DNA of 64,000 nucleotides, taken from Betaproteobacteria bacterium Ga0077540. GTDB lineage: Bacteria; Pseudomonadota; Gammaproteobacteria; Burkholderiales; Methylophilaceae. Below, in pieces: positions 46,514 through 63,400 of the stretch (position 1 is the stretch's first letter; every line of letters starts with the position of its first letter). The notes beneath the pieces were generated by a model. It was not told the origin of the DNA. It did no database searches and saw nothing but the letters and a program-made list of their open reading frames with translations. The stretch covers positions 124,001-188,000 of the forward strand of contig LNEP01000011.1 in assembly GCA_001464125.1 (NCBI GenBank), read 5' to 3'. A program made the position numbers and the translations under genes.

Positions 46514-47320
46514 TTAATTTTTTGGTTTTATCAAAAACTCGCGCGCAAGCGCGGTTTGTTTTTTTAGGCCTATATTCACCACCCGCGGGAATATGCCATT
46601 AAGCCAAGCAAAGAAAGTTTGCGGTTGCCCAATAAATAACTCCTGCTTTTCCGCTTCCAGCGCTTGCACAATACATCTGGCAACATGCTCAGCGCTATCA
46701 ACTGCATTACCCGATTTTTTCCACATGGCATCGACATTGGGTGCGTTCATGGGCGTAGCAATGCCTCTGGGGGCAATATAAGTAACGCCAATATTGGTAT
46801 CGACCAACTCCCGTCTTAATGCTTGAGAAAAACCGTGTACAGCAAATTTGGTGGCGCAATAGGTAGCAAAGTGCGGGAAACCCAGTGAGCCGAAAATGGA
46901 GCCAATAAAGACAAAACGCCCTTGGTTGGCTGAAAGAAAATCTGGTAAAAGGGCGCGCGTGAGTTGAATGAGCGCGGTGACATTAGTGTTGACCATCTCG
47001 GCAATACGCGCGTCACTTTGGTCTTGTAACTCGGTAAAATCGAGAACCCCTGCATTGTTAATCAGGATATCGATACCCCCAAGCGCAGCCTTGGCCTCTG
47101 CAATCAGTTTGCTACTGGCGTTGGCAGTGCTTAAATCGGCCACCAGACACACGGCTTGCGTACCAAAGGACTCAACGGTTTGTTTCAAGGCTTGCAATTT
47201 TTGGGCATCGCGACCCACCAAGCCAAGAATAGCGCCTTTTTTTGCTAGCAAGATTGCCACGGCTTGACCTAAGCCGCCTGTCGCACCTGTGAGTAAAATA
47301 CGCTGTTGCTTCAGTTGCAT
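46514..47320 (-). CDS. Short-chain dehydrogenase/reductase, fourth gene of the T_hemolysin-ligase-diiron operon
   Basis: A 268-residue classical SDR. The cofactor motif is LTGATGGLGQAVAILLAKKGA, then NNAGVLDF, a catalytic Ser in IGSIFGSLGF and YCATKFAVHGFSQALRREL (YxxxK). The C-terminus is hydrophobic (FFAWLNGIFPRVVNIGL), suggesting membrane association. GGGAGA precedes the ATG. It starts 18 bp after the TenA-like gene and is the last gene of the operon. The substrate is unknown; a fatty-acyl-derived ketone or aldehyde would fit the context. Confidence 0.9.
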   Translation of the reverse strand: MQLKQQRILLTGATGGLGQAVAILLAKKGAILGLVGRDAQKLQALKQTVESFGTQAVCLVADLSTANASSKLIAEAKAALGGIDILINNAGVLDFTELQDQSDARIAEMVNTNVTALIQLTRALLPDFLSANQGRFVFIGSIFGSLGFPHFATYCATKFAVHGFSQALRRELVDTNIGVTYIAPRGIATPMNAPNVDAMWKKSGNAVDSAEHVARCIVQALEAEKQELFIGQPQTFFAWLNGIFPRVVNIGLKKQTALAREFLIKPKN

Positions 47321-47338: not shown

Positions 47339-48010
47339 TTACATGGTGCGTGCTGATACATCTCTAAACACATCACCATACAGTTTATAAAACATTTTTG
47401 CCGCATGAATCACAATCGCTTGGTCTTTTTCGTCCGTGATTTGGTTCACCAGACTCTCGTAAAACGAAACATGGCTGATGTCTAATGACCCATGTGACAG
47501 CAAATAACTAAAGGCTTTTTTCGGTAAATTTAAGCTTTGCATCAGCTTTTCGCCCGCTTGGGTCGCTACTGCCGTGCTGGTGCCTTCTAGCACCAAGACC
47601 ATGCCAAAAAAGCCTACAGGGTTCACGCGGTAAATCATATCGTAAGCGTAGGCCACCATCAGCTCTGTGGCTTGACTGGCACTGGTGTCAGCGTAGCTTG
47701 AGTTACGCACGGCTTCTTTGTCTGCACCGCATACTTCAATATCATTGAGCACCCACTCCTGATGCCCCATTTCTTCTTCGATATATTCGCCAATGGCCGT
47801 CCGTAGCCACTCATATTGACCGCTTAAACGACCGCCACAAGCCATGAGTAAAGGTGTGGTGTGTTTGACATGATGATACGCCTGTGTGAGAAACGCAACG
47901 TATGTTTGCAGAGAGATATCGCCCGCACCACCACGTTGAATCAGTGGCAGGCTCATGAGCGAATTGCGCTCTTGTTCGGTGGCGGCTAGTAATTGATTGT
48001 AAAAAGCCAT
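47339..48010 (-). CDS. TenA/haem-oxygenase-fold iron-containing redox protein
   Basis: A 223-residue all-helical protein. Likely metal ligands are seen in AYHHVKHTTPLL (His), YIEEEMGHQEWVLND (Glu and His) and HGSLDISHVSFY (His, Asp, His), the pattern of haem-oxygenase-like diiron oxidases, of which UndA-type enzymes decarboxylate fatty acids. TenA thiaminase residues are not evident. The ATG at 48010 is preferred: AAGGAAT precedes it and it is 2 bp from the ligase stop; the frame runs 18 codons further upstream. Substrate inferred only from operon context. Confidence 0.82.
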   Translation of the reverse strand: MAFYNQLLAATEQERNSLMSLPLIQRGGAGDISLQTYVAFLTQAYHHVKHTTPLLMACGGRLSGQYEWLRTAIGEYIEEEMGHQEWVLNDIEVCGADKEAVRNSSYADTSASQATELMVAYAYDMIYRVNPVGFFGMVLVLEGTSTAVATQAGEKLMQSLNLPKKAFSYLLSHGSLDISHVSFYESLVNQITDEKDQAIVIHAAKMFYKLYGDVFRDVSARTM

Positions 48011-48012
48011 GC

Positions 48013-49515
48013 TTATTCCTTTTCTGTATAAAGTGCTTGAATCTGGTGTTGGTATTGTTGCCAAATGGCCTCGCGCTTGAGGCGGCCATTTGGGGTAAGT
48101 TGTCCATTGCTGACGTTAAACGCAGTCTGGCTGGTGAGCCAATGGCGTATTTGTGCGTAATCCGGTAGTTGAGCGTTTACTTGCGCAATGCTTTCCTCCA
48201 CTGTGGTGGGGTCTGATTCCGGATGGGGTGTAATCACGGCCACATTCCACGGTCTGGCTTCGCCAAACACGCAGGCTTGCTGGATGGCGGGTAGGTGCGT
48301 AAGCTCGCGCTCAACCCATTCTGGCGACACATTGCGGCCAAACGAGGTGATGAACATGTTCTTTTTACGCCCTTGTATGTACCAAAAGCCTTCGTCGTCA
48401 CAGCTACCAATATCACCGGTTGGCATCCAGCCATTTTCAGAAAAGTTGGCAGCGTCATGGGTGTAGCCGATAAAATTAGCCCCTTTAATCCATATTTCAT
48501 GGTCTTCCGCCAAACGCATGGCAATATGGGGCAGCGGTTTGCCCACACTGCCAACGCGATGGGCTGAGGGCGTGTTGAGCGTGACTACCGATGCACTCTC
48601 GGAAAGGCCATAGCCTTCGTAGACAGGCAAGCCAACTGCGGCAGCACGTTGCAGTAAAGCTGCGGATACATGCGCACCACCAACCGCGATAAACCGCAAA
48701 TGCGCCAATGCAGATCTGCATGATATGGCCGCATCTGACTCACATAATTGAATCAAAGCATTTAATAGCTCTGGTATTAAAATAACAGTGCTGGCTTGGC
48801 TTAATGCCAAGGTAGAAAAGAGTTTTTTGACATCAAAACTGCTGCCCACAAACCCGACTGTTTCTGAGGGGTAAACATGGATGGTTGCACCAGCCAATAA
48901 GCTTGCATAAACGCCCGCCACATTCTCTAACAGTGTGGATAGAGGCAGCACGCAGGCATGACAATCTTGAGGTGTCAGTTGCACTTGTGTGCTGATGGCT
49001 TGCGCGACATCTTGCATGGCTTTTGCGCTTAAGCATACGCCCTTGGGTGCGCCGGTAGTGCCGGAGGTGTAGGTAATTTTTGCAGTATTTTTTTCTAATA
49101 CTGGTTGTGCAAAATCTAGTCGATATTCTGCCAAGGCCGTGCCTGCAATTAATAGCGTAGATTTAGCCAAGCTATGCGTTTTTACCAGTTGGTCAAAGCG
49201 TACGGTCTGGTCTGTAATGAGTACATTCACCCCAGCATCCTGCATTGCGTGTAGCAATTGGGCATCGGTAAAAAACGCGGGTAGCGGAACGGAAGGCAGG
49301 CCTATTTGCAAGGCTGCAATATCTAACACTATCCAAGCAGGTTGGTTGTGCATGGCCACTGCAATGCGTGTTTGCGCCGGATATTTGGCTAAATGTAAAC
49401 TGGTTTGCACAATCGCATCGTTCAGTTGACTATAAGTGAGCGCGTGCGAAATGCCCTGCAATGCCACTTTGTGTGGGTTGCGCTGTGCATGACGAATGAT
49501 TGAAGAATGAATCAT
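48013..49515 (-). CDS. AMP-dependent acyl-CoA synthetase/ligase
   Basis: About 500 residues of the ANL superfamily. The P-loop is ITYTSGTTGAPKGVCLS, then VGLPVYEGYGLSES (A5), the TGDIGSCDDEGFWYIQGRKKNMFI block (A7-A8) and a shortened C-terminal domain ending NGRLKREAIWQQY, which retains the conserved Lys. It should adenylate a carboxylic, probably fatty, acid. The start at ATG 49515 (MIHSSIIRHAQRNPHKV) fits the family; the frame is open to an ATG at 49614, but the added residues are Cys/Arg-rich and look non-coding. It is 114 bp from the upstream T_hemolysin gene. Confidence 0.9.
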   Translation of the reverse strand: MIHSSIIRHAQRNPHKVALQGISHALTYSQLNDAIVQTSLHLAKYPAQTRIAVAMHNQPAWIVLDIAALQIGLPSVPLPAFFTDAQLLHAMQDAGVNVLITDQTVRFDQLVKTHSLAKSTLLIAGTALAEYRLDFAQPVLEKNTAKITYTSGTTGAPKGVCLSAKAMQDVAQAISTQVQLTPQDCHACVLPLSTLLENVAGVYASLLAGATIHVYPSETVGFVGSSFDVKKLFSTLALSQASTVILIPELLNALIQLCESDAAISCRSALAHLRFIAVGGAHVSAALLQRAAAVGLPVYEGYGLSESASVVTLNTPSAHRVGSVGKPLPHIAMRLAEDHEIWIKGANFIGYTHDAANFSENGWMPTGDIGSCDDEGFWYIQGRKKNMFITSFGRNVSPEWVERELTHLPAIQQACVFGEARPWNVAVITPHPESDPTTVEESIAQVNAQLPDYAQIRHWLTSQTAFNVSNGQLTPNGRLKREAIWQQYQHQIQALYTEKE

Positions 49516-49629
49516 GTGAATGCTAAATGTTCTCGTATGTTGGTTGGACAAGCATGTAATCAATGTGTCGCTAGAATATAGACGACAGCGCCAAAACAAC
49601 AGCGCTGGGTACATGACAAGTTTGCCTAA

Positions 49630-50283
49630 TCAAACTGGAGGCAGCGGTTCAGCAATGCCACGGATAGCCACGATTTGCGGCAAGTGACGGTAATAAGAAC
49701 CCCATTGCTTGAGGGCCTCTGGTGTGAGTCTCGCCGGGTCTGCCGGTGAGAGTGCATAGACATCGCGCCCACCTTTAATCAAGCCATTTTGCAGGCTGTG
49801 ATGCGCTGTAGCGACTGCCCACTCAATACCAATATCCAAGCTGTGTTGAATGACATGGGCAATCAGCACGCCGGCATTGCGTGGGTTGGCCACTGCTAAA
49901 TTGCCGATGCAAGTGATTTCATTGCGAGTGATGGTGCGTCCAAGTTGTTCAGTGAGCAGTTGTTCAATGGGGATATCGATATATTGCTCAAGAAATAAAG
50001 GCTCGCCTGCAGCCGAACGCAACCCAAATGCAGCCATTAAGATGCCGTTGCTATCGCGTAACGCGACTAGGTCTGGCATAAATTGTGTGATGTTTGCGCC
50101 ATACACTTGGGCAAACACAGTTTTAATAAACCCTTCTACTTCTGCACGGCAGGGCGCATCTTTGGCCACCGCATGCGCGGTGATCTCGCTGATTTGGTAG
50201 CGCTTGGTTTGTGCAAATTCTCTCAATTGGTAAGCCGTTTCGGCGGTATATATCGGTTGTGTTGCTACGTTCACTGGTAACAT
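49630..50283 (-). CDS. Thermostable hemolysin (T_hemolysin) family protein, GNAT-like
   Basis: A 217-residue soluble protein of the T_hemolysin family. It has EVEGFIKTVFAQVYGANITQFMPDLVALRD, ILMAAFGLRSAAGEPLFLEQYIDIPIE and the block EITCIGNLAVANPRNAGVLIA. The fold resembles acyltransferases of the GNAT/LuxI type, so despite the family name it more likely moves an acyl group than lyses cells; this is inference. First gene of the operon with the ligase, TenA-like and SDR genes. A sigma-54 promoter lies about 25 bases upstream of its predicted 5' UTR end. Confidence 0.85.
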   Translation of the reverse strand: MLPVNVATQPIYTAETAYQLREFAQTKRYQISEITAHAVAKDAPCRAEVEGFIKTVFAQVYGANITQFMPDLVALRDSNGILMAAFGLRSAAGEPLFLEQYIDIPIEQLLTEQLGRTITRNEITCIGNLAVANPRNAGVLIAHVIQHSLDIGIEWAVATAHHSLQNGLIKGGRDVYALSPADPARLTPEALKQWGSYYRHLPQIVAIRGIAEPLPPV

Positions 50284-50318
50284 TACTTTACTCTCAACAT
50301 GGTGTTGTTATCCATTAT

Positions 50319-50333
50319 GCAAGCCATGTGCCA
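50319..50333 (-). promoter_or_regulatory. Sigma-54 promoter of the T_hemolysin operon
   Basis: On the minus strand TGGCAC-ATGGC-TTGC-AT matches the -24/-12 consensus TGGCAC-N5-TTGCW at every fixed position. A start site about 12 bases past the GC would be near 50307, giving a 24-base leader with GAGAG ahead of the ATG at 50283. Confidence 0.85.
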
Positions 50334-50382
50334 GTTAATTATCTTTATTAAAATCAGCTACTTATCATTATCTGCATTTATT

Positions 50383-50405
50383 ATCCCTGCAAACTTTGCA
50401 GGGAT
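50383..50405. promoter_or_regulatory. Perfect 23-bp palindrome, likely enhancer site for an NtrC-type activator
   Basis: The arms ATCCCTGCAAA and TTTGCAGGGAT flank a single central C with no mismatch. Its centre lies about 87 bp upstream of the minus-strand sigma-54 start and about 209 bp upstream of the plus-strand one, both typical distances for activator sites. A further half-site CCTGCAAA is at 50428. The neighbouring NtrC-family regulator (57311-58678) is the natural candidate to bind it. Confidence 0.7.
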
Positions 50406-50576
50406 GTCACTTAGCAATCTCCATATTCCTGCAAAAAATGTATGGTTTAACGCCGCTTAATGTTGGCTACCTCCTGCCGTTTCTAATTTGAAGCAACCCC
50501 ACAATCATGCTAAGTGATTGTTTATCCAAATTATTTATTCAATTTTTTAATTTTCCCCATCACTTTTTTTACAACT

Positions 50577-50591
50577 TGGCACATCCCTTGC
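50577..50591 (+). promoter_or_regulatory. Sigma-54 promoter of the phosphoethanolamine transferase operon
   Basis: TTGGCAC-ATCCC-TTGC matches TGGCAC-N5-TTGC exactly. The expected start near 50603 leaves a leader of roughly 45-50 bases before the first transferase gene. An AT-rich, probably bendable tract precedes it, as is usual where IHF assists activation. Confidence 0.85.
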
Positions 50592-50653
50592 GAACTTCCT
50601 CCGTCATGTACGCAGATGTTCTGCCTATTTAACAATAAAAGGTTTATGTCATT

Positions 50654-52390
50654 TTGAGTTTCCAACAGCCCTCTATTTCTCATGCCACCACGCAAGCGCC
50701 ACCCCAGCAAACAACAGCAAGTACCATGCTCTGGGCTTATGGCTTGTTTTGGTATTTAACAGCCACCACACCGCTATTGATAGGATTATCGCGCACGGGT
50801 TCATTTGAAGGTTTTAAAGACGCAACTTTTACCGCGTTGTTGTGGCTCATTCCTCTGTTGCTGATGCCCAAGCAGGCCAAAAAAATCGCAGGCATATCCG
50901 CCATCTTGATTTGGTTAATGGCCTTGCCCGGATTTGGTTACTTTTTGGTGTACCGCCAAGAACTGACGCAAAGCTTGATATTTATTATTTTTGAATCCAA
51001 TAAGTCAGAGTCGACTGAGTATTTTCAGAACTACATTTCATGGGGCATTGCATGCGGATTTGTGTTGTTTAGTCTGGTGCCTATTTACCTATGGTCAAAG
51101 ATCAGAGTTATTCACCTAACACGTTCCACTGCTTATGCGTTTGCAGCCACTCTATTGGCGCTGATTTTTGCTTACCCAGCTTACAAAGCCATCAAAGGTA
51201 GCGATATTCAGCTGGCCTATCGTTCTATTGATCAACATTTTGCAGTGGCATCACCATGGCAGTTGGTGCTGGGTTATTGGCATTATCAACATGAACTGGG
51301 TGAGATTGAACGTAATTTGCTTGATTTTAAGAAAATTCCGCCATTAAACCATTTGACCGAGCAAGATAAACCGTTACCCACCACCATCGTGCTGGTGATT
51401 GGTGAATCGACTAATCGTTTGCATATGGGCTTGTATGGATACCACCGTAATACCAATCCTAAGCTCAGCACGCTGCAAAACGAGCTTAAGGTATTTAAAC
51501 AGGTATTTGCGTCTAGACCCAACACCATAGAGAGTTTGGAGCAAGTACTCACTTTCGCCAATCAACAGCACCCAGATTGGTATAAAACCAAACCCTCTAT
51601 TCTGGCGATGATGAAGCAAGCGGGCTACAAAACTTATTGGGTGACCAACCAGCAGACACTCACAGCGCGCAATACCATGCTGACCACCTTTGCAAAGCAG
51701 GCGGACGAGCAAGTGTTTTTGAACACTTCACGCAAGCAAAACGCATATAGCTACGATGAAAAAGTATTGGCGCCCTATGCCGATATGCTGAATCGCCAAG
51801 ATGAGAAAAAGCTGATTGTGGTGCATTTGCTGGGGACGCACATGAAATACACCTACCGCTACCCTGAAAATTTTGATTACTTCCATGATGCCCAAGGGTT
51901 ACCCAAAGGTTTGTCCCAAAAGCAAATTGAAACAGTTAATGCTTATGACAACGCGATACGTTACAACGATACGATAGTGTTCGAGTTGATTCAGCTACTC
52001 AAGCAGCAAAACCAACATAGCTTGTTATTTTACTTTTCAGACCATGGGGACGATGTTTACGACTCCACACCGCATGATTTTCAAGGCAGAAACGAAGGCC
52101 GCCCCACCTATCCCATGTACGCCATTCCTTTTGTGGTTTGGCACTCCCCCAATTGGTTTAATGCAGATTTGCTGCATGCCCCAGAGCTATTGAATCGCCA
52201 ATATGACAATGCCGATTTCATTTATACCTTCTCTGAGTTGCTGGGTTTGCAATATGACGGCTATTTGCCGCATGAAAGTATTGTGAACGCGCACTTTATG
52301 AACGACCCAATTATGGTGGGCAATCCACATCAACACGCGCTGCAGGCATTAGCCGACACTAAGCCGTATCCGCTACATGACATTGATTAA
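50654..52390 (+). CDS. Phosphoethanolamine transferase (CptA/EptC-like)
   Basis: A 578-residue inner-membrane enzyme with five predicted N-terminal helices and a periplasmic sulfatase-fold domain. The catalytic Thr is T253 in VLVIGESTNRLHMGLYGY, and metal ligands lie in YFSDHGDDVYDS. It transfers phosphoethanolamine to a lipid A, LPS core or other envelope acceptor. The start is uncertain: the frame begins at TTG 50654, while an ATG at 50646 with AAAAGG ahead is one base out of frame, reading ATG-TCA-TTT-TGA; the first in-frame ATG is 50726. The second transferase follows after 8 bp. Confidence 0.88.
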   Translation: MSFQQPSISHATTQAPPQQTTASTMLWAYGLFWYLTATTPLLIGLSRTGSFEGFKDATFTALLWLIPLLLMPKQAKKIAGISAILIWLMALPGFGYFLVYRQELTQSLIFIIFESNKSESTEYFQNYISWGIACGFVLFSLVPIYLWSKIRVIHLTRSTAYAFAATLLALIFAYPAYKAIKGSDIQLAYRSIDQHFAVASPWQLVLGYWHYQHELGEIERNLLDFKKIPPLNHLTEQDKPLPTTIVLVIGESTNRLHMGLYGYHRNTNPKLSTLQNELKVFKQVFASRPNTIESLEQVLTFANQQHPDWYKTKPSILAMMKQAGYKTYWVTNQQTLTARNTMLTTFAKQADEQVFLNTSRKQNAYSYDEKVLAPYADMLNRQDEKKLIVVHLLGTHMKYTYRYPENFDYFHDAQGLPKGLSQKQIETVNAYDNAIRYNDTIVFELIQLLKQQNQHSLLFYFSDHGDDVYDSTPHDFQGRNEGRPTYPMYAIPFVVWHSPNWFNADLLHAPELLNRQYDNADFIYTFSELLGLQYDGYLPHESIVNAHFMNDPIMVGNPHQHALQALADTKPYPLHDID

Positions 52391-52398: not shown

Positions 52399-54036
52399 AT
52401 GACGACGATGACGCAATTATTTACACTTTCATACCCACCATCGCGACTGCAATCACCACATCGAATGACGTTGCTGGTGAGCCTTTTTTTAATGCTGTTT
52501 GCCAATCACGCGCTGTTTAGTCATATCTTGCAGATTTACCCGTTCTCTGCAACAGAATGGCCGTTTCTGGTTTCTATTGCATTGTTTTTTACTGCGCTGA
52601 CTGCGCTTTTTTTGCTGTGGATAACGTATGGGCGGGCCACTCGATGGGTGCTGGCATTAATATTAGTGCTGGCCTCACAAGCTGCGTATTACATGGATAC
52701 CTACGGCGTCATTGTGGATACGGTGATGTTGGACAATATTTTGCATACCAACCCGCAAGAGTTTGCAGGATTGCTGACCTTTAAATTGCTGATGTACACC
52801 GTCTTGATGGGGCTGCTGCCAGCTTGGATAGTGTTGAGATATTCACCCCGCAGCACCATGAGCAAAGCAGTGTTGTTGGGTAAGCTCAAGTTGTCTGGGG
52901 TGTTGCTGATGTTGGTGGTCGCTGCGGTTGCGCCATTTACTGCCCACTACGCATCGTTTATTAGAGAACATAAGGTGGCGCGCATGTATGCCAATCCCAC
53001 CTTTTTTAGTTATTCCATCATCAAATATTTAGCATTGGCCGCTCAAGCCAGCGAGGTAAAAACATTAACGCCGGTTGCGCAGGATGCGGTGGAGGTGGAT
53101 GCGCACAAACACCACGAGCTCATCATTATGGTGGTGGGTGAAACGGCAAGAGCAGATCGATTTTCACTCAATGGTTATCAGCGTTTGACCAATCCGCGTT
53201 TGCAACAAGAAGAGGTGTTGAGTCTCAGTAATGTGTCATCTTGCGGCACCTCGACAGGCGTATCGGTGCCTTGTATGTTCTCTGTGTTGGGGCGTAAAGA
53301 CTTTGATAAAGAAAAAGCCAAACATATGGAAAATGCATTGGATGTGTTGTCCGATAACGGTGTGGAAATCTTGTGGCGTGACAATAACTCGGACTCTAAA
53401 GATGTGGCCACGCGTATGCACTACGAAGATTTTAAAACGCCTACTTTTAATACGGTGTGTGATAGTGAGTGCCGTGACGTGGGTATGCTCAAAGGCCTAG
53501 ATCAGTTTATAGCCTCTCAACAAGACAAAGACATTTTGATTGTGCTGCATCAAATGGGCAATCATGGCCCTGAGTATTACCGACGCTATCCCAAAGCGTT
53601 TGAACAGTTTACGCCCACCTGCAAAAGCGGTGAGTTGAGCACCTGTACCCAGCAAGAAATTGATAACGCTTACGATAACGCGATTTTATATACCGATTAT
53701 TTTTTGTCTGAGGTGATTCGGTTGTTAAAGCAGTATGAAAACAGTTATGAGACTGCCATGCTGTACGTGAGCGATCATGGCGAATCACTAGGTGAGCATG
53801 GCATTTATTTGCACGCGGCACCTTATATGATTGCGCCTAAAGAACAGACGCACGTGCCGGCGATTGTGTGGATGGGCAAACGTTTTGATTACAGCCTGGA
53901 TCAACTCAGGCCGTTTAAAGACTACCCGTTTAGCCATGATGATGTGTTTTGTAGCTTGTTGGTTTCATACGAGCTAGATTCCGAAACCTGTGCAGCCAAA
54001 CGACAAGTGCTGATGGCGAACAAAGACCTAAACTAA
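52399..54036 (+). CDS. eptA: Lipid A phosphoethanolamine transferase (EptA-like)
   Basis: A 545-residue EptA/MCR-family enzyme with five N-terminal membrane helices. The catalytic Thr is T249 in VVGETARADRFSLNGYQR, followed by the EptA-type Cys block VSSCGTSTGVSVPCMFS, and the metal site YVSDHGESLGEHGIYLH. Cysteines in FNTVCDSECRD and FTPTCKSGELSTC match the disulfides of the class. Such enzymes modify lipid A and lower affinity for cationic peptides. It is the second gene of the sigma-54 transcript with the CptA-like gene. Confidence 0.92.
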   Translation: MTTMTQLFTLSYPPSRLQSPHRMTLLVSLFLMLFANHALFSHILQIYPFSATEWPFLVSIALFFTALTALFLLWITYGRATRWVLALILVLASQAAYYMDTYGVIVDTVMLDNILHTNPQEFAGLLTFKLLMYTVLMGLLPAWIVLRYSPRSTMSKAVLLGKLKLSGVLLMLVVAAVAPFTAHYASFIREHKVARMYANPTFFSYSIIKYLALAAQASEVKTLTPVAQDAVEVDAHKHHELIIMVVGETARADRFSLNGYQRLTNPRLQQEEVLSLSNVSSCGTSTGVSVPCMFSVLGRKDFDKEKAKHMENALDVLSDNGVEILWRDNNSDSKDVATRMHYEDFKTPTFNTVCDSECRDVGMLKGLDQFIASQQDKDILIVLHQMGNHGPEYYRRYPKAFEQFTPTCKSGELSTCTQQEIDNAYDNAILYTDYFLSEVIRLLKQYENSYETAMLYVSDHGESLGEHGIYLHAAPYMIAPKEQTHVPAIVWMGKRFDYSLDQLRPFKDYPFSHDDVFCSLLVSYELDSETCAAKRQVLMANKDLN

Positions 54037-54062: not shown

Positions 54063-54566
54063 TTATTTGCAGTTTAAATGCTCAGGCGCTTCCGTCGAGA
54101 TATGGTCTTTGCTTATCCATAAAATACTCTGCACGCGCTTATCGGTATGGCAGGCATCTACATAACCAATACTGCCTTTGGTATCGGCCACGTAGCGTAG
54201 CATGGCTTCCTCTGATTGCAGACTACGTGGCGGTCTGACACCGTGGAAGTAGCGCTCGTTCCAGTAATCGGTTTGCTCCTTTGGTAGGTTGTTGAGCACC
54301 ACTTTAGAAAACAGCAAGCGCAATGGATGTTCGGCATGCAAATTGGCAGGTTGCATGCGTTGGCCGCCTTGCCAAAACTCTTTTTTGCGCCAATAAATCA
54401 GGCGCAGCTCACTCGCGGCAAGATTGCTCACTGGTGCAATGTCTGCACTGCTGGAGACAATCACTGCAATCACTGGCGACTCCTCGGCATAAACAAGGTT
54501 TAACGACAGCCACCAGCACGTTAGGCTGAACACAATGAAGCGCATGATGCGATAAAGGTGCAGCAT
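54063..54566 (-). CDS. PstS-like periplasmic phosphate-binding-domain protein
   Basis: A 167-residue protein with a signal peptide (about 1-27, ending LNLVYAEES). The sequence ASELRLIYWRKKEFWQGGQRMQPANL followed by RYFHGVRPPRSLQSEEAMLRYVADTKGSIGYVDA is typical of short PBP-like proteins of the PstS superfamily. It is far shorter than true PstS and encodes no transporter, so a sensory role is possible. Its ATG overlaps the stop of the porin-like gene (TAATG). Confidence 0.8.
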   Translation of the reverse strand: MLHLYRIMRFIVFSLTCWWLSLNLVYAEESPVIAVIVSSSADIAPVSNLAASELRLIYWRKKEFWQGGQRMQPANLHAEHPLRLLFSKVVLNNLPKEQTDYWNERYFHGVRPPRSLQSEEAMLRYVADTKGSIGYVDACHTDKRVQSILWISKDHISTEAPEHLNCK

Positions 54567-55558
54567 TAAAACAACACCGCAAATGTACTGATAAAGCCAC
54601 GTGGGGAGTCTGGTAATTCGCCACTGCCCCCCACAAATTCAAACTTTAATAACTGATTGGGTTTGACGCGCTTGGTGGCGCCTATTAACCATCGTTCTGC
54701 ACTGCCAGACTCAGGATGGTCAAAGGTTTCTAGCCTTGTCAGCCAATACCATTCATTGCCCAAGTGATACGCGCTTTGTAAATAGGCGCCACTGCCACCA
54801 TCATTGCCTTTATTAGTGTTGCGGTAAAAGCCTTCGCCACTAAGCTCAAGGTTGCCGATATGGGTGACAAAATCTAAGCCAAATAAACGATAGGTCGGGG
54901 AAAGAGGTCTGTCTTCCTGAAAGCTGGCCAATGTCAGCCCAATATTGATGGGCGCGTTGAGGGTAAAACGTGCGCCATTGACATGCTTGTAGATGATTTC
55001 GTTATCATCGCGGATTTGGTCTTTGAGGCCTTCTGTAAAAAAGGTGTACTCAAACGCATAGTCTTGATAAGGCACACTGCCATACAGCATAAGCCCGTTA
55101 ATCGAGCTCGGGAACAGTAAGCGTGTGGCAATGGGGCGGGTGGAAGTCCAAACCAGTGGCGCTGCATGGATGAGATTCCAGCGGCCTGCCGGCGTTAAAA
55201 AGCGGCCAGCGCGCAAATTCAGCTTTTCGGATAGGTTGTAGTCTAGGTAAAAACGCTCTAAATCTAAGTAGGCATCACGTGTGGTCAGCCCTTGTTGACT
55301 GTTCCATTTAAGTGGTTCTTCTAACTCAAACTCACCAAAAAATTTAAAGCGGCTTTCATTCTCCCAAGTGAGGATTAAACTGATTTCATTGATGAACGCA
55401 TTGGCCTTACTATCTCTTGGAATTTCTACGCCAGCACTGCTATAACCGCCTAAAGCAAAACTATCCCAGAAATTGCTGTTGTCTTCTGCCAACACTGGCT
55501 TGCACAGGCCAAGCAGGCTGGTTACACTGGCAATCACAACTATGAATCGTTTAAACAT
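54566..55558 (-). CDS. Porin-like outer-membrane beta-barrel protein
   Basis: A 330-residue protein with a signal peptide (about 1-24, LLGLCKPVLAED) and alternating amphipathic strands rich in Tyr, Trp and Arg: ISLILTWENESRFKFFGEFELEE, YLDLERFYLDYNLSEKLNLRAGRFLTPAGRWN. It ends in Phe (STFAVLF), the usual barrel insertion signal. Substrate unknown. It is translationally coupled to the PstS-like gene downstream and divergent from the histidine kinase gene, 82 bp away. Confidence 0.8.
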   Translation of the reverse strand: MFKRFIVVIASVTSLLGLCKPVLAEDNSNFWDSFALGGYSSAGVEIPRDSKANAFINEISLILTWENESRFKFFGEFELEEPLKWNSQQGLTTRDAYLDLERFYLDYNLSEKLNLRAGRFLTPAGRWNLIHAAPLVWTSTRPIATRLLFPSSINGLMLYGSVPYQDYAFEYTFFTEGLKDQIRDDNEIIYKHVNGARFTLNAPINIGLTLASFQEDRPLSPTYRLFGLDFVTHIGNLELSGEGFYRNTNKGNDGGSGAYLQSAYHLGNEWYWLTRLETFDHPESGSAERWLIGATKRVKPNQLLKFEFVGGSGELPDSPRGFISTFAVLF

Positions 55559-55640: not shown

Positions 55641-57299
55641 ATGCCAAAAGCACTTTCGATTAAACAACTCCTATTATTGGCTTTTGTGCTGGCTGGTTTG
55701 CTGCCGGCCATGCTGGTGAGTTTTCTGAGCTTTAAGCAAGCGAGTAATGCGCTTAAAACAGAAATTTTGCACGATTTACAAACCTTAAGTGCAACGGTGG
55801 CGGCCGATGTAGAACGCATGATGTTCGAGCGCTTGCAAAATGTGCATTCGTGGAGCCAATTGGGCTTGATGCAAGAAGTGAGCATCGGCGATATTGATAA
55901 GCGTTTGTCCATTTTCTTAAGCGAGTCACAACAAGCTTATCACCAAGAGTATAGGGCATTGTATGTGCTGGATTTAAAACGGCAGGTAGTGGCTTCAAGT
56001 CGCGCTGCTGCCATCGGTAAAACCATGTCACGTCCACCCAATTGGTTCACCGTAAAAGTGGGCGAGCGCTCTCTGGATTTATCAGTGATCCATCAGGATG
56101 TTTTAACCATGACCCAACCGATTCAGGACAGCGATACGCAGCAACCCATCGGCTTTTTGGTGGCAGAATTTAACTGGCAGGTGATTAAAAAATTACTGAA
56201 CGATTCAGCAAACAAACAAGCTTCGATTGGATTGCTAGACCAGCAACAGCGTGTCATCGCAGCCTCAAATAATTGGTCAGAAGAAGGCCATGCGCTCCAC
56301 GTCAGCAATGGCTTGCAAGGCAAGGTCAATTTACCCGGTTGGTCTGTGCGCATTGAGCGTGCACACTCTATAGCCGTAGCGCCAGTGCATCGTCTGGGCT
56401 ATATTTTTCTGGCACTGCTGGCTGCGACCTTGTTATTTTCGTTGGTGTTAGTAAGGCCAATTGGCCGCGCCATTACCCAACCATTAGAGCGGCTCACGCA
56501 ATTTGTGCGTGGTTTTCATCAGCAGAAGCGAGCGGTGCCACCCAAAGAAGGGCCACCGGAACTGCAGGAGCTGACACAAGCTTTTGAGAAAATGATTCAA
56601 GATTTGGAAGTGTCACAAAACAATCTCACACGTGCTGCCAAGTTGGCCGTGGTGGGCGAGATGGCCGCAGCCATGAGTCATGAGGTGCGCACTCCATTGG
56701 GTATCATGCGCTCATCGGCCGATGTGTTATTGCGCGAACCGCAATTGAGCAAAGATGGTCGTGAGGTGCTGGGCTTTATCATTTCTGAAACCGAGCGCCT
56801 TAATAAGCTGGTCAGCACGCTGATTGATGCCGCCAGACCGCGCACCCCAAACTTTAACCCGATTGATTTAACCCAGTTGATTTATCGCGTGATTGCGCTG
56901 TTACAAAGCCAAGCACAAGCCAAACAATTGACCATTATCTTTACTGAGACGGAAATCATGACGGTGTGGGCTGACCAAGACCAAATGACCCAAGTGCTGA
57001 TGAATCTGTTGATGAATGCGATTCAAATTTTGCCGCCACAAGGGAAGGTTGTATTGCATTTGGAGAAGCTTGAAAACAATATGGTGCTAACCGTATCTGA
57101 TAACGGCCCTGGCATTCAAGTGTCTGACCAAGCACAGGTATTTGAGCCATTCTTTACCCAGCGTGCTGGCGGTGTTGGATTGGGGTTGGCGGTGGTGCGA
57201 CAAATCGTACATAGCCACCGCGGTGAAATTACCTATCGCAATAGTGTGATGGGTGGTGCAGAATTTACCCTCGTATTGCCTGTTACCCAGACCAGTTAA
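55641..57299 (+). CDS. Sensor histidine kinase with periplasmic Cache-type domain
   Basis: A 552-residue kinase: membrane helix (9-28), periplasmic Cache-like sensor (about 30-250, with RALYVLDLKRQVVASSRAAAIG and a second half ASIGLLDQQQRVIAAS), membrane helix (about 254-275), HAMP, then HisKA with the phospho-accepting His347 in MAAAMSHEVRTPLGIMR. The ATPase has the N box DQMTQVLMNLLMNAIQ, G1 VSDNGPGIQ and G2 GGVGLGLAVVRQIV. Its partner regulator gene follows after 11 bp. The signal is unknown; the adjacent periplasmic-binding and porin genes suggest an envelope or nutrient cue. Confidence 0.94.
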   Translation: MPKALSIKQLLLLAFVLAGLLPAMLVSFLSFKQASNALKTEILHDLQTLSATVAADVERMMFERLQNVHSWSQLGLMQEVSIGDIDKRLSIFLSESQQAYHQEYRALYVLDLKRQVVASSRAAAIGKTMSRPPNWFTVKVGERSLDLSVIHQDVLTMTQPIQDSDTQQPIGFLVAEFNWQVIKKLLNDSANKQASIGLLDQQQRVIAASNNWSEEGHALHVSNGLQGKVNLPGWSVRIERAHSIAVAPVHRLGYIFLALLAATLLFSLVLVRPIGRAITQPLERLTQFVRGFHQQKRAVPPKEGPPELQELTQAFEKMIQDLEVSQNNLTRAAKLAVVGEMAAAMSHEVRTPLGIMRSSADVLLREPQLSKDGREVLGFIISETERLNKLVSTLIDAARPRTPNFNPIDLTQLIYRVIALLQSQAQAKQLTIIFTETEIMTVWADQDQMTQVLMNLLMNAIQILPPQGKVVLHLEKLENNMVLTVSDNGPGIQVSDQAQVFEPFFTQRAGGVGLGLAVVRQIVHSHRGEITYRNSVMGGAEFTLVLPVTQTS

Positions 57300-57310: not shown

Positions 57311-58678
57311 ATGGATGCACTCAAAACAGTACTCGCGGTGGATGATGAGCCCAATATGCGCCGCTTATTGGAAATTAGCCTGCGTCAGGCCGGTTACCGA
57401 GCGTTGGTGGCGGAGGATGGTAAACAAGCGTTGCATCTTATTAACACGCAAAATGTAGATTGTGTGGTGAGCGATTTGCACATGCCAGGGATGAATGGGC
57501 TAGCTTTGTTGGGGCAGATTCGTCAAGTATCTGAGCGCCTGCCGTTTATCATGGTCACTGCACAAGGCGAAGTCAAGACCGCGGTAGAGGCCATGAAACT
57601 GGGCGCCTCAGATTACATTCAGCGTCCGTTTGAGTTGGAAACGCTAGAGCTAGCGATTAGTAAAGCGCTCACCAACAATAGAATCGTGCTGGAAAACACT
57701 TTTTTAAAAGCGGACCAACAACCAGCAGAAAATGGATTAATTGGACAAAGTAAAGCCATGCTGGTGTTAAAGCAAATGATTCAACAAGTGGCGCCAGAAA
57801 AAGCCACGGTGCTGATTACTGGTGAAACCGGGACAGGTAAGGAGCTAATCGCCAAAGCTTTACATGCAGCCTCGCCCAGAAAAAACGCATTGTTTGTGGC
57901 AGTCAATTGTGCGGCGATTCCTGCTGATATTTTAGAGTCCGAGTTATTTGGGCACGAAAAGGGCGCCTTTACCGGTGCGGTTAAAGAGCGGGTGGGCAAG
58001 TTTGAGCTGGCTGATGGCGGCACGCTGTTCTTGGATGAGTTGACCGAAATGCCTATCCACCTGCAAGCCAAATTATTGCGCGTTTTGCAAGAGGGCGTGG
58101 TGGAAAAGTTGGGCGGTAATCGCCAAATTGCGCTAGATATCCGCGTGGTTGCTGCCACCAATCGTGACCCACAACAAGCGGTCAAAGATGGCAAATTGCG
58201 TGAGGATTTGTACTATCGCCTAAACGTATTTCAACTTAACTCACCTGCTCTGCGTGACAGAGATGAGGATATTGCATTGCTATCTCAGTATTTTCTGAAT
58301 AAACGCAGCACATCGCTTAGCGCTGAAGCACTCGGCTGTTTAAGCGCATATCGCTGGCCTGGCAATGTGCGAGAACTGGAGAACGTGTTGGAGCGCGCAG
58401 CCATTCTCTCTGGCGGAAAGGCCATTACCCCTGCACATTTGCCTGCCGATATTGTCGGGGCCGCTACACCAGCCATGGCGGCTACCTTTAATGCACTTGA
58501 GCACACAGCAGAGCACGAGCATGCATACTCTATTCCTCATGCCACCGCGCAGCTAGAGCGGCAATTGATAGAGGCCGCATTACGCGAATGTAAAGGCAAC
58601 AAAGCCAAAGCCGCCAAACTGCTGGAAATAAGTGAACGCTCGCTTTGGTATAAGCTAGAACAATACGAAATGAAGTAA
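57311..58678 (+). CDS. NtrC-family sigma-54-dependent response regulator
   Basis: A 455-residue regulator. The receiver domain has VLAVDDEPNMRRLLE, phospho-acceptor Asp55 in VVSDLHMPGMNG and IMVTAQGEVKTAVEAMKLGASDYIQRPF. The AAA+ domain has Walker A ITGETGTGKELIAKALH, the sigma-54 contact loop ESELFGHEKGAFTGA, Walker B GGTLFLDEL and the R-finger region. A Fis-type helix-turn-helix closes it (ALRECKGNKAKAAKLLEISERSLWYKL). It should activate sigma-54 promoters; the two such promoters found here, 7 kb away at 50.3-50.6 kb, are obvious targets. Confidence 0.95.
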   Translation: MDALKTVLAVDDEPNMRRLLEISLRQAGYRALVAEDGKQALHLINTQNVDCVVSDLHMPGMNGLALLGQIRQVSERLPFIMVTAQGEVKTAVEAMKLGASDYIQRPFELETLELAISKALTNNRIVLENTFLKADQQPAENGLIGQSKAMLVLKQMIQQVAPEKATVLITGETGTGKELIAKALHAASPRKNALFVAVNCAAIPADILESELFGHEKGAFTGAVKERVGKFELADGGTLFLDELTEMPIHLQAKLLRVLQEGVVEKLGGNRQIALDIRVVAATNRDPQQAVKDGKLREDLYYRLNVFQLNSPALRDRDEDIALLSQYFLNKRSTSLSAEALGCLSAYRWPGNVRELENVLERAAILSGGKAITPAHLPADIVGAATPAMAATFNALEHTAEHEHAYSIPHATAQLERQLIEAALRECKGNKAKAAKLLEISERSLWYKLEQYEMK

Positions 58679-58756: not shown

Positions 58757-59392
58757 ATGCCACCCAAACCAAAAACAGAACAAGAACGCGAACAATTTAG
58801 AACGCTGATTATTGATACAGCGCGTGATTTGTTTGTCAGCAAAGGCGTGGAGGCTGTCACCATGCGCGAGATTGCCAAGCGTATTGGGTATTCGGCCACC
58901 AGTATATATTTGCATTTTGCTGATAAAGAGTCTCTGATACGCGCCATTTGTGAGACTGATTTTTTAAAGCTGGCCACCACCTTAAAAGAGATCTTGGCGA
59001 TAGCAGACCCCATTGAGCGCATGATTGCATTTGGCGAGGGCTATGCCCGATTTGCGTTAGCCTTTCCAAACCATTACCGCTTGATGTTTATGACGCCGCA
59101 TTTGCCGAACGTCTCCGAAAATATGGCGTTAGAGAAAAATAACGCGGAGCAAGATGCCTATTTTCAGCTTAAAACCGTGGTGCATGATGTGTACCTTACT
59201 GGTGGATTTAAGCCCGATTTACAAGACTCGGAACTGATTACGCAAACCTTATGGGCTGGGATACACGGGGTATGCGCTTTACAGATTACTATGGCGGATG
59301 ATGATTGGGTAGAATGGCGACCAATCGAGGCTCGCTTAAGCATGATGCAGCAATTAATGCTATCAGGATTATTGAAAGAACAATATGCATAA
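58757..59392 (+). CDS. TetR family transcriptional regulator of the RND efflux operon
   Basis: A 211-residue protein. The N-terminal helix-turn-helix is DTARDLFVSKGVEAVTMREIAKRIGYSATSIYLHFADKESLIRAI. The C-terminal ligand domain is helical and resembles the WHG/TetR_C_33 type (FGEGYARFALAFPNHYRLMF, LWAGIHGVCALQI). It probably represses its own operon until a pump substrate binds. Its stop overlaps the adaptor gene's ATG by 8 bp. Confidence 0.93.
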   Translation: MPPKPKTEQEREQFRTLIIDTARDLFVSKGVEAVTMREIAKRIGYSATSIYLHFADKESLIRAICETDFLKLATTLKEILAIADPIERMIAFGEGYARFALAFPNHYRLMFMTPHLPNVSENMALEKNNAEQDAYFQLKTVVHDVYLTGGFKPDLQDSELITQTLWAGIHGVCALQITMADDDWVEWRPIEARLSMMQQLMLSGLLKEQYA

Positions 59393-60488
59393 AAAAACAT
59401 TTCTACTGCTGTTGCCACTATTGCTCAGTGCGTGCGATAAACCTGTTGAAACGGCACCCCCACCACGCCCTGCGCTGGTGATGAAAGTAGGCCAACATAG
59501 CCATCAAGACAATGAAATGGTGCTGGTGGGCGAGTTGAAATCACGCTATGAATCTAACGTTGGGTTCAGAATCGCAGGCAAAATTACTAAGCGCTTGGTG
59601 GATGTAGGTGCACAAGTTAAAAAAGGCCAAGTACTCGCCACCATTGATGCTAATGATGCCAACTTAAGCGCACAAGCGGCCAATGCCGATATTCAAGCGG
59701 CTGAAGCCAATTATGCACTGGCCAAAGCAGAGCTAGACCGCCAACGCCAGCTATTTGAAAAACAGTTTATTTCTAAATCTGCTTTGGATTTACGCGAGGC
59801 TGAATTTAAAACATCCGTCGCACGTTTAAAACAAGTCAAATCACAATCAGCTGTGACGGGCAACCAATCTAGTTACACCAAGTTAGTTGCAGACCGCGAT
59901 GGGGTCATTGCGCAAATCACAGCAGAGCCAGGTCAAGTGGTAGCTGCGGGCCAGCAGATTGCGCAAATTATTGATTATGGGCATATTGAAGTATTGGTAG
60001 CGGTGCCAGAGTCCAAAATGTCACACCTGCAAGTGGGGCAATCTGTGTTGGTGAAACTCTGGGCAAACACCGAAAAGACCTATCAAGGCAAAGTACGAGA
60101 AATCGCGCCCGCAGCCAATACTGCCACCCGCGCGTTTGATGTGCGCGTAGCGGTAGAAAACCCAGATGCGCAACTCAAAGTGGGTATGACGGCCGGTGTG
60201 GCGTTTGATACACAAGCCAGCCAAAAAATCGTCATCCCCAGTACCGCACTTACCGAACTAAATGGTCAAAAACAGGTGTGGGTGATTGATAAGGGCGGCA
60301 TTGCCAAGCTAAGAACTGTGGAATCTGGCGCATTTAATGAGCAAGGGATTGAAATCACCAGTGGCCTACAGCCAGGCGAGATGGTAGCGATTGCTGGCGT
60401 GCATACCTTGGTCAATGGCCAAAAAGTCATGCCGCAATTATCGGCTTCTGCCATGGCGCATGCGGCAACAGAAAGCGCACAACAATGA
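59385..60488 (+). CDS. RND efflux periplasmic adaptor (membrane fusion) lipoprotein
   Basis: A 367-residue HlyD/AcrA-type adaptor with a lipoprotein signal (TFLLLLPLLLSAC, Cys near residue 17). It has the lipoyl half-motifs VGFRIAGKITKRLVDVGAQVKKGQVLATID and TKLVADRDGVIAQITAEPGQVVAAGQ, a helical hairpin (about 85-145), a beta-barrel domain with VLVKLWANTEKTYQGKVREIAPAAN and a C-terminal membrane-proximal domain. It joins the RND pump to an outer-membrane channel. It overlaps TetR upstream and the pump gene downstream (ATGA). Confidence 0.94.
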   Translation: MHKKTFLLLLPLLLSACDKPVETAPPPRPALVMKVGQHSHQDNEMVLVGELKSRYESNVGFRIAGKITKRLVDVGAQVKKGQVLATIDANDANLSAQAANADIQAAEANYALAKAELDRQRQLFEKQFISKSALDLREAEFKTSVARLKQVKSQSAVTGNQSSYTKLVADRDGVIAQITAEPGQVVAAGQQIAQIIDYGHIEVLVAVPESKMSHLQVGQSVLVKLWANTEKTYQGKVREIAPAANTATRAFDVRVAVENPDAQLKVGMTAGVAFDTQASQKIVIPSTALTELNGQKQVWVIDKGGIAKLRTVESGAFNEQGIEITSGLQPGEMVAIAGVHTLVNGQKVMPQLSASAMAHAATESAQQ

Positions 60489-63400
60489 ATCCGGCTGATC
60501 AACAAGATAGCTCGCCAGACCATCAGCCGGAGAAGTCTAGGTTTAACCTTTCGTCTTGGGCGTTAAATAATCAAGTCATCGTCCTGTATTTCATGTTGCT
60601 GCTCACCTTTGCGGGTATGTTTGCCTACACGCAACTTGGTCAGTCCGAGGACCCGCCTTTTACGTTTAAAGTGATGTTAATACGCACCAGTTGGCCTGGC
60701 GCTAGCGCGGTAGAAGTAGAGCAGCAAATCACCGATAAAATTGAAAAGAAAATTCAAGAAGTTCCGCATTTAGGCTACTCCAGTAGCTATTCTCGCCCCG
60801 GGTTGTCTGTGATTTTTGTGGTGATTAAAGATGACACGTTCTCTGGAGAGATTCCGGAACTATGGTACCAAGTCCGCAAAAAAGTGGGCGATATACGCCA
60901 CACCCTACCCAGCAACATCGAAAGCCTAACTTTTAACGATGAGTTCAGTGATGTCTATGGCAGCATGTACGCGCTGACTGGGGATGGTTTTGATAATTTT
61001 GCGCTCAAGCAGCAGGCAGAGCGTATTCGTGCTGAGTTGCTCAAAATCAAAGACGTGGCCAAAGTGGATTTTTTTGGCGAGCAGAAGCAACGTGTATTTA
61101 TCGAGATATCCAATGCAAAACTCACGACGTTGGGCATCAGTGCAACCCAACTACTACAAACGTTGCAAACACAAAATGCCGTGGTGCGCGGTGGCACATA
61201 CGAGTCTCCGGATGAGCGTATCCGTATCGATGTGACAGGTCGATTCACCACATTGGATGATTTACGCAATTTAGAAATTCGTGCCAGTCAGCAGGCTTTC
61301 AAGTTGGGTGATGTGGCGCGTATCTATCGTGGCTATGAAGACCCACCGCAAGACACTGTGCGTTACAACGGCACAGATACTCTGTTGTTAGGGGTGAGCA
61401 TGGCTGAGGGTGGTGATGTAATTGCCTTGGGTAAACATTTGGATCAAACCATCCAAAAAGTGCAACAGCAATTGCCTGTAGGCTTAACACTCAGCACCGT
61501 CACCTCACAACCCAAAATCGTAGCAAATTCTGTACAAGATTTTGTTAAATCGCTGGTGGAAGCCTTGGTGATTGTGTTGGGCGTGAGCTTGCTATCCCTT
61601 GGATTACGCACAGGTATAGTTGTTGCGATTTCTATTCCTATCGTGATGGCGGCCACGTTTTTGGCCATGCATTATTTTGATATCGGGCTACACAAAATTT
61701 CCTTGGGCGCATTGATATTGGCGTTGGGGTTGCTGGTGGACGATGCCATTATTGCGGTAGAAATGATGTCTTCCAAAATGGAACAAGGATGGGATCGCAT
61801 ACGCTCGGCCTCATTTGCGTATACCTCCACCGCCATGCCTATGCTCACAGGCACCTTGGTTACAGTGGCTGGCTTTTTACCCATTGCCACCGCCGTGTCT
61901 TCCACGGGTGAATACACGCGCTCCATCTTTCAAGTCTCAGCCATTGCACTGATGATTTCATGGGTGGCGGCTGTAGTATTTGTGCCCTACCTTGGTTATC
62001 ACTTGTTGCCGGATTACAGTCAAAAGCCAGCCTCGCCTAAATGGATTGTTTGGATAAAACAGCGTTTAAACCTCAAAGATGCAGACGATGCCGCGCACCA
62101 TCATGACATCTACAATACCGCATTTTATGGTGCTTTCCGTCGCTTGGTTACCGCTTGCGTACGCTATAAAAAAACGGTGATTGTCATCACCATGTTGATG
62201 TTTGTATTGGCATTGGTCGGCTTTAGTAAAGTACAGCAGCAGTTTTTCCCGGACTCTACACGTTTGGAACTGGTGGTGGATTTACGTTTAACTGAAGGGG
62301 CTTCTTACCACGCCACAAACGCCGAGGTAAAACGTTTGGAGCATTGGTTGCAAGCATGGAATAAAGAGCATGCCGCGATAGATAATTTTGTTGCCTACAT
62401 CGGCACCGGTGCGCCACGTTATTATCTACCATTGGATGTGCAGTTGCCGCATCGAGGCTTTGCACAATTTGTCATTCTGACCAAAGATTTGGACATGCGT
62501 GAACGCCTGCGCTCAGATTTATTGCATCTGTTTGAACGTGACTTTCCAAGTTTGCGTGCTTCCGTATTGCGTTTAGAAAATGGTCCGCCGGTCGGGTTTC
62601 CGGTGCAGTTTAGAGTGGATGGCGCAGATATTCCTCAGGTACGCAGCATTGCCCATCAAATTGCAGAAGTGATGCGCGCCAACCCCAACCTCACCAATGT
62701 GCAATTGGGCTGGGAAGAGCCCAGCAAGGTCATGCATGTGAAAATTGACCAAGCTAAAGCCAGGTTGTTAGGGGTCAGTTCCGTTGATATTGCCAATATG
62801 CTTAACGGTGCAATGAGCGAGTTGTATGTGACCGAGTTTAGAGAGGGCAACGAGCGGATTGATATTGTGGCACGTGGGCCGGAAATAGAACGTCAACAAC
62901 TATCGCGTTTACCAGATTTGATGGTGTATACCCAAACCGGTAGAAGTGTGCCATTGTCACAGGTGGCTACCATTACTTCTGATTTTGAAGAGGGCGTGAT
63001 TTGGCGACGCAATCGCGTGCCATCGCTAACCGTGCGAGCACATTTGCGAGGGAACATGCAAGCACCTGTGGTGTCTGCACAAGTGGAAGAAAAAATTAAG
63101 CACCTGCGTGAGACGCTACCCATGGGTGTTACGGTGGAAACTGGCGGTGCGGTAGAAGAGTCTGCCAAGGGCGGCGCCTCCGTTGCCAAGGGTGTGCCGT
63201 TATTCATCGCGGTAGTAGTGACCTTGTTAATCATTCAGCTTCGTAGCTTCTCACGGGTTTTTCTAGTGATGCTCACCGCACCATTAGGGTTGATTGGGGT
63301 GACAGCGGCTTTGTTAATTTTTAATATGCCGTTTGGCTTTGTCGCCATGCTGGGTACCATTGCGCTGTCTGGCATGATTATGCGTAACTCGGTAATTTTG

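Follow-up and report, generated by a model that had tools for sequence, protein, structure and literature searches.

To understand how two divergently transcribed operons, one encoding enzymes of acyl metabolism and the other phosphoethanolamine transferases that act on lipopolysaccharide (LPS), might be switched on together, we examined the 370-base gap that separates them in Betaproteobacteria bacterium Ga0077540, a member of the Methylophilaceae and a methanol-using type of bacterium. The gap lies between the open reading frames (ORFs) 49630-50283 (minus strand) and 50654-52390 (plus strand) of a 64,000-nucleotide stretch of contig LNEP01000011.1, hereafter the window. An earlier note on this DNA had proposed that a single activator, bound to a palindrome in the gap, drives sigma-54 promoters on both sides. 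Our sequence comparisons indicate that the locus very probably belongs to a sigma-54-dependent two-component regulon for LPS and lipid A modification that is joined to the acyl operon, with a shared enhancer serving two divergent promoters.

As the earlier note had stated, TGGCAC-N5-TTGC is present on both strands of the gap and the two elements face outwards (Table 1). The sigma-54 consensus, TGGCAYRN4TTGC, has GG at -24 and GC at -12, and both elements match it; the genome encodes RpoN (one match, 226 bits). Exact TGGCACN5TTGC occurs four times in the whole window, and the two matches outside the gap (6897-6911 and 39564-39578) fall within ORFs in our window scan. When up to two mismatches are allowed, the window contains 109 matches compared with a mean of 108.5 after shuffling, hence no enrichment, so the case for the promoters is carried by their exactness, position and conservation. 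Since the wider pattern TGGCAYN5TTGC is found 55 times in the 2.33-Mb assembly (seven times when reversed), a lone match is weak evidence and comparison with other genomes is needed.

The T_hemolysin gene that heads the acyl operon was found in 29 of the 61 genomes searched, the window's included, and a -24/-12 element lies directly upstream of it in 25 of these 29 loci. Orthologs of the NtrC-type response regulator encoded at 57311-58678, defined by at least 52% identity (the next matches reach at most 49%), are present in 28 of the 61 genomes, the gene being split across two contigs in G020. The acyl-side promoter was detected in 25/26 T_hemolysin genomes that contain the regulator versus 0/3 that do not (G034, G041 and G048), an association with a Fisher p of 0.0011 among species that are not independent of each other. 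On the opposite side, the divergent promoter is present in all 18 loci where cptA or PAP2 is the first divergent gene (15 perfect, three with CGG instead of TGG). It is absent from the six regulator-bearing T_hemolysin loci without a cptA/PAP2 operon alongside (L034, L035, L040, L042, L052 and L055) and from L045, where the divergent gene encodes another Sulfatase-family protein. Loss of the motifs in relatives that keep both operons would have told against joint control, and the counts of 25/26 and 18/18 do not bear such a loss out. As a control, we considered 414 ATG-started ORFs of at least 200 amino acids from the 29 loci, spanning about 19 kb around each locus and less at contig ends. A perfect promoter lies within 250 bases upstream of 38 of them, which comprise 22 T_hemolysin, nine PAP2 and five cptA genes, one ArnT-like gene and one methyltransferase gene opposite T_hemolysin. 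At one locus of G030 (L061:9372-10109) a methyltransferase-domain gene with a sigma-54 promoter match replaces cptA/PAP2 opposite T_hemolysin.

Between the two promoters lies an exact palindrome, as described earlier, the arms of which are fully complementary. Its core occurs once in exact form in the assembly, with four more places at two to three mismatches and none for the reversed control. The full 23-bp palindrome was rejected as the functional unit, because relatives conserve the 15-bp core (50387-50401) alone. The nearby sequence previously read as a half-site is present (50425-50435) but is no half, since it forms part of a degenerate full site at 50429-50443. On this comparison the functional unit is a putative pair of CTGCA-N5-TGCAG sites, about three or four helical turns apart. 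The proposal that a palindrome plus half-site serves one activator is therefore retained with respect to shared control and corrected with respect to architecture, to two activator sites. An alignment of 42 sites from 21 acyl-side promoters yields a matrix of about 20 bits in which the centre of CTGCA-N5-TGCAG is rich in A and T. This matrix is flattered because the sites were picked by resemblance to the core and the four promoters out of 25 that showed no site within the range searched were omitted. The best site in these 21 promoters is located 60-62, 93 or 102-108 bases from the -24 element, and a partner spaced at 31, 33 or 41-44 bases is found in every one (allowed range 26-50). Counted by hand among the matches listed, excluding rows in coding regions or of uncertain context, 34 promoter pairs had spacings of 31-33 (12 pairs) or 41-44 (22 pairs), although two loci also fit a spacing of 40 through an overlapping third site. 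Because these gaps are close to three and four helical turns, both sites would lie on one face of the DNA. In the window, the site centres are at 50394 (UAS1) and 50436 (UAS2). Both sites, with up to two mismatches each, occur at fixed distances in 18/25 acyl-side promoters compared with 125 of 116,000 random positions. Conservation among relatives, which the earlier note named as a check for promoters and palindrome alike, holds for the promoters, whereas the palindrome core is more variable, with both sites at the usual distances in these 18 of 25.

Candidate sites for integration host factor (IHF) were scored against the IHF consensus, with one mismatch allowed. An IHF-like site lies in the 55 bases before 19 of the 25 acyl-side promoters (shuffle mean 4.1, maximum 10), and in 18 of the 25 it has a common orientation and is placed 30-32 bases upstream of the TGG. 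On the divergent side, the IHF-like site has the opposite orientation and is found at 40-42 bases in 14/19 promoters including the window's, a count made without a shuffle control; further one-mismatch matches are located close to 50537-50549.

Eight T_hemolysin loci found through the regulator search (L128, L131, L135, L142, L144, L153, L154 and L156), some of them closely related to each other, were outside the motif derivation and provide a held-out set. The acyl-side promoter is present in all eight and the site pair (up to two mismatches each, spaced 31-33 or 42-43 bases) in seven, with L128 and L131 having the pair at other distances from the promoter. Upstream of T_hemolysin in 18 genomes of other families, an activator site with at most one mismatch was found in none and a -24/-12 match in one, so sigma-54 control of the T_hemolysin operon looks specific to the Methylophilaceae. 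The single match (L221 in G193, TGGCATGGCCCTTGC), which is without CTGCAN5TGCAG sites, is perhaps an independent sigma-54 link.

Joint control of the two operons, as put forward in the earlier note, is supported by genomes in which they are separated and retain their own promoter and sites. The operons are on different contigs in G002, where a site pair and promoter precede the acyl operon and another set precedes cptA-PAP2-eptA. T_hemolysin was not matched in G017, and the cptA-PAP2-eptA operon of this genome keeps the promoter and sites (two seen; one when limited to 230 bases and at most one mismatch). G030 contains a second promoter and site pair immediately before PAP2-eptA. In G034 (L062:3405-9274) genes for T_hemolysin, the ligase, the iron enzyme, the reductase, a TPR protein and an EptA-type protein are consecutive on one strand, and the genome lacks the regulator and both motifs. 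This gene order connects the acyl pathway to lipid A modification independently and without sigma-54.

To define the wider regulon, we searched the 61 genomes for a combined site-plus-promoter pattern, TGCAN5TGCA-N36-64-TGGCAYN5TTGC, which gave 41 matches and none for the reversed control. The matches were classed by neighbourhood (T_hemolysin by coordinate), with Pfam searches on examples of each kind, and those within ORFs were regarded as chance. Twenty precede T_hemolysin, nine separate eptA-type genes, two ArnT/PMT-like genes, one a glycosyltransferase-PMT operon and one an outer-membrane beta-barrel (porin-like) gene; one is without an intact downstream gene and seven are within ORFs. 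ArnT-like here denotes a resemblance to ArnT of proteins with PMT domains. The sole pattern match in the window's genome is at the present locus, as is its sole EptA_B_N gene. A candidate regulon site at G000:C3:292183 was rejected as it is inside a long ORF. At G001:C9 (L096:2971-3082) a conserved site pair and promoter are not followed by an intact eptA, in contrast to the corresponding position in G009, possibly reflecting recent gene loss. EptA_B_N genes were counted in 19 chosen genomes, 14 with the regulator and five family members without it: 25 genes are spread over 13 of the 14, and none is present in the five. Thirteen of the 25 belong to conserved cptA/PAP2/eptA operons and 12 stand alone, nine of the latter with a perfect promoter and paired sites and one with the pair and a one-mismatch promoter. 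Chance as the source of the matches was rejected on the recurrence of the pattern, the 414-ORF control and the random-position pair test.

Not all observations favour a regulon governed through this enhancer, and the following weigh against it. UAS2 of the window is degenerate, with two mismatches, and in most relatives the divergent promoter is about 33 bases closer to the sites than it is in the window. No activator site was found in the searched range in the distant G023, G029, G032 and G026, and G027, the sole regulator-bearing T_hemolysin genome in which the acyl-side promoter was missed, has a weak match. In the held-out loci, the site pair at no more than one mismatch and the IHF-like site are each found in only 2/8. 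Among the stand-alone eptA genes, one of the 12 has the pair alone and one has neither element, and the notion that EptA is restricted to regulator-bearing genomes was dropped because the regulator-free G034 has one. Finally, six sigma-54 activators are encoded in the genome, so adjacency is no proof of which one binds.

This last point leads to the reading that the sigma-54 promoters are real but that the sites are bound by another activator (NtrC, a GlrR-like protein or an unassigned one) and something else is under the control of the adjacent regulator. The six activator domains are strong (216-247 bits; three extra matches of 21-30 bits belong to other AAA+ proteins), and the five besides the adjacent regulator include one clear NtrC (712 bits, cut-off 558.6) and one GlrR-like protein under cut-off. 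The NtrC site likewise has TGCA half-sites, but their spacing is unlike that seen here. Moreover, a promoter-type match outside ORFs is found in 20/28 genomes with an ortholog of the adjacent regulator and 0/33 without one, a comparison in which the co-occurrence of that regulator alone was scored, and the lone match among regulator-free genomes (G031) is within an ORF. The regulator gene is still found close to cptA-PAP2-eptA in both G017 and G002, and this operon retains sites and promoter there. Control by another activator is thus unlikely, and from adjacency and co-occurrence we infer that the activator is the regulator at 57311-58678.

It is also improbable, and a little more so, that the acyl promoter alone is real, with the divergent match arising by chance and cptA-eptA being read from a sigma-70 promoter. 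In the window clade (four loci) the divergent promoter is about 140 and 183 bases from the site centres, compared with about 107 and 150, which is some three turns more and beyond the usual range, and the IHF-like site at 40-42 bases is poor or absent. This reading does not account for the occurrence of the promoter in every one of the cptA/PAP2 loci (three with one mismatch) and in none of the six regulator-bearing loci without the operon, nor for G002 and G017, where sites and a promoter precede cptA-PAP2-eptA with T_hemolysin elsewhere or absent. Hairpin formation is possible for a perfect 23-bp palindrome, which might represent a terminator, a repressor operator or the end of a mobile element beside coincidental promoter matches; however, neither strand has a run of T after it, and paired copies at regular spacing recur before genes of related function and hardly anywhere by chance, making this explanation very improbable. 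A shared enhancer bound by the adjacent regulator therefore remains our preferred reading of the locus, the other features of which are listed in Table 1.

Table 1. Coordinates of promoter elements, candidate protein-binding sites and genes at the divergent locus (window numbering)
Feature	Position	Strand	Remarks
Acyl-operon sigma-54 -24/-12 promoter, TGGCACATGGCTTGC	50319-50333	minus	Perfect match; kept in 25/29 T_hemolysin loci
Divergent cptA-eptA sigma-54 promoter, TGGCACATCCCTTGC	50577-50591	plus	Perfect match
Perfect 11+1+11 palindrome	50383-50405	none	Arms 50383-50393 and 50395-50405, 100% complementary
Putative activator site 1 (UAS1), palindrome core, CTGCAAACTTTGCAG	50387-50401		Centre 61 bases upstream of acyl -24 element
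Putative activator site 2 (UAS2), CTGCAAAAAATGTAT	50429-50443		Two mismatches; 42 bases centre to centre from UAS1
IHF-like site, TAAGTAGCTGATT	50352-50364	minus	One mismatch to consensus; between UAS1 and acyl promoter
Weaker IHF-like site, ATTCAATTTTTTA	50537-50549	plus	One mismatch; 40 bases upstream of divergent promoter
T_hemolysin family protein (PF12261), first gene of acyl operon	49630-50283	minus	Predicted GNAT/acyl-synthase fold
AMP-forming acyl/acid ligase family protein	48013-49614	minus	Family matches
Haem-oxygenase-like iron enzyme (Haem_oxygenas_2, PF14518)	47339-48010	minus	First ATG at 48010; TTG-started ORF reaches 48064
Short-chain dehydrogenase/reductase	46514-47320	minus	Family matches
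CptA-like phosphoethanolamine transferase	50654-52390	plus	Alternative ATG at 50726; NF007933 667 bits, cut-off 404
EptA-like lipid A phosphoethanolamine transferase	52399-54036	plus	NF028537 603.5 bits, cut-off 500; EptA_B_N and Sulfatase domains
Small secreted-looking protein, conserved with two-component system	54063-54566	minus	No family match
Outer-membrane-porin-like protein	54566-55558	minus	Weak Porin_O_P match, under cut-off
Sensor histidine kinase	55641-57299	plus	Sub-threshold Cache match
NtrC-type sigma-54 response regulator, proposed activator	57311-58678	plus	Receiver, AAA+ with GAFTGA, Fis-type helix-turn-helix (HTH)

The plus-strand operon contains two transferase genes separated by 8 bases. 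Both products had been described as lipid A phosphoethanolamine transferases, a designation that suits the EptA-like product of the second gene and not the CptA-like product of the first, which we take to be of the LPS-core type and which scores 671 against a second CptA profile (NF012179), under its cut-off of 900. A PAP2 phosphatase is added to the operon in most cptA- or eptA-bearing relatives. The genes for the small secreted-looking and porin-like proteins are convergent to the transferase genes, and the kinase-regulator pair lies beyond these two genes and is divergent from them. The small protein, which has no family match, may resemble PstS, and its structure model has a predicted local distance difference test score (pLDDT) of 64 and a predicted template-modelling score (pTM) of 0.51. 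Sequence context suggests that the two proteins may be part of signal sensing. They accompany the kinase and regulator even in L158 (50% regulator identity), a fetched stretch without T_hemolysin or EptA. Two modules of secreted protein, porin, kinase and regulator, about 16 kb apart and near PAP2-type genes, are present on contig JAGVMP010000011.1 (L148 and L149), and the T_hemolysin operon is absent from the stretches fetched there. The regulator gene is followed, in the window and a number of relatives, by a TetR regulator and an RND efflux operon (58757-63679).

The four minus-strand genes for the T_hemolysin protein, ligase, iron enzyme and reductase are closely packed. 'Hemolysin' is a family label. 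An AlphaFold2 model built from 22 T_hemolysin sequences (pLDDT 82, pTM 0.76) has as its top five matches in the PDB 6wns, 2g0b, 1ro5, 2g0b and 3p2h, a set made up of FeeM, an N-acyl amino acid synthase, and of MesI, LasI and TofI, which are acyl-homoserine-lactone synthases (E 2e-6 to 8e-6, TM score 0.47-0.54, root-mean-square deviation 4.1-6.4, 11-14% identity); general GNAT acetyltransferases come next in the ranking, from E 4e-5. The protein is thus predicted to have a GNAT-like fold nearest to acyl-homoserine-lactone and N-acyl-amino-acid synthases. Because an acid-activating ligase adjoins the gene, our best guess is that the operon makes a product of acyl transfer. In Vibrio parahaemolyticus, a predicted interaction network places the thermostable hemolysin VP1729 and the iron-containing redox enzyme VP1731 beside the two-component protein VP1735 (PMC10469919), which hints at a wider tie of the acyl operon to two-component control.

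A mechanism consistent with these features can be proposed. The kinase, possibly together with the neighbouring secreted and porin-like proteins, would sense an envelope signal and phosphorylate the NtrC-type regulator. Once bound to the site pair, the regulator would open sigma-54 polymerase at both promoters, IHF providing the bend in the DNA. One output would be a change in LPS and lipid A charge through CptA and EptA. The other would be an acyl product of the T_hemolysin-ligase-iron enzyme-reductase operon, the first enzyme of which probably transfers an acyl chain in the manner of FeeM or LuxI-type synthases. In several relatives, additional eptA, ArnT-like and outer-membrane genes at other places in the genome would come under the same regulator. 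The motifs, with their positions, conservation, recurrence and co-occurrence with the regulator, are observed directly, and from them we infer the binding of regulator and IHF, the envelope signal, the LPS modification and the acyl-operon product.

The promoter architecture is classical, textbook sigma-54. Activator sites, an IHF site and a -24/-12 element follow one another in the NtrC-glnA and NifA-IHF promoters. The same order of elements is found here, but the site sequence and the targets differ and one enhancer serves two divergent promoters. In the ZraPSR envelope-stress system, a periplasmic accessory protein accompanies the sigma-54 response regulator, whereas the regulator described here scores 362.9 bits against the ZraR profile (NF007689), under the cut-off of 760, and has other targets. 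The well-known LPS charge-modification circuits use OmpR-type regulators, those of PmrAB and PhoPQ being sigma-54-independent. In contrast, the present regulator is an AAA+ protein with a Fis-type HTH and is not of the PmrA/PhoP type, having HTH_8 and no Trans_reg_C among the 12 families matched. A two-component system that turns on EptA- and ArnT-type LPS modifications would nevertheless be common to both (PMC4244539), and the same review cites work in Salmonella in which rpoN affected survival of polymyxin independently of pmrA.

In form, the known regulon closest to this one is that of PrsK/PrsR (Haft 2006, PMC1569441). This PEP-CTERM regulon likewise has an NtrC-type two-component system, an upstream motif with a -24/-12 element and many scattered single promoters, and controls the cell exterior (PMC1569441, PMC9850573). 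It differs in its upstream element, which was reached through a TTTACA motif and serves PEP-CTERM genes (PMC1569441), whereas the code here is CTGCAN5TGCAG, the targets are LPS-modification genes and the regulator scores 409.3 bits against the PrsR profile (TIGR02915), below the cut-off of 502.6, which none of the six activators passes. Control of the PEP-CTERM/PrsR type was rejected on this score. A protein with a PEP-CTERM-like end is encoded elsewhere in the window's genome.

The earlier note regarded joint sigma-54 control of these operons as undescribed. In the open-licence literature, covered mostly at title and abstract level, we recognised no report of sigma-54 control of eptA or cptA by a dedicated NtrC-type regulator, and a search there for Methylophilus lipid A gave no match; within those papers, it is the content of the regulon and not its architecture that was not found described. 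Sigma-54 has been linked in general with LPS and envelope genes (Francke 2011, PMC3162934), in a paper whose main text, as far as it was available, does not contain the terms 'lipid A' and 'phosphoethanolamine'. Sigma-54 has been put forward as the controller of the bacterial exterior, and the present locus would offer a specific example. With a sigma-54 circuit that depends strictly on its activator and whose enhancer code can be read, the regulon would be predictable from DNA alone; the misnamed 'thermostable hemolysin' operon would be placed in the context of envelope remodelling and would acquire acyl transfer as a chemistry that can be tested. We see about even chances that the Methylophilaceae possess an LPS- and lipid A-remodelling regulon (EptA, CptA, PAP2 and ArnT-like proteins) under a sigma-54/NtrC-type two-component system with its own CTGCAN5TGCAG code, and that this regulon is coupled to a dedicated N-acyl lipid or signal made by the T_hemolysin operon. 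If this is true, a single envelope signal would lead both to modification of the cell's coat and to an acyl compound that is released or inserted into the membrane.
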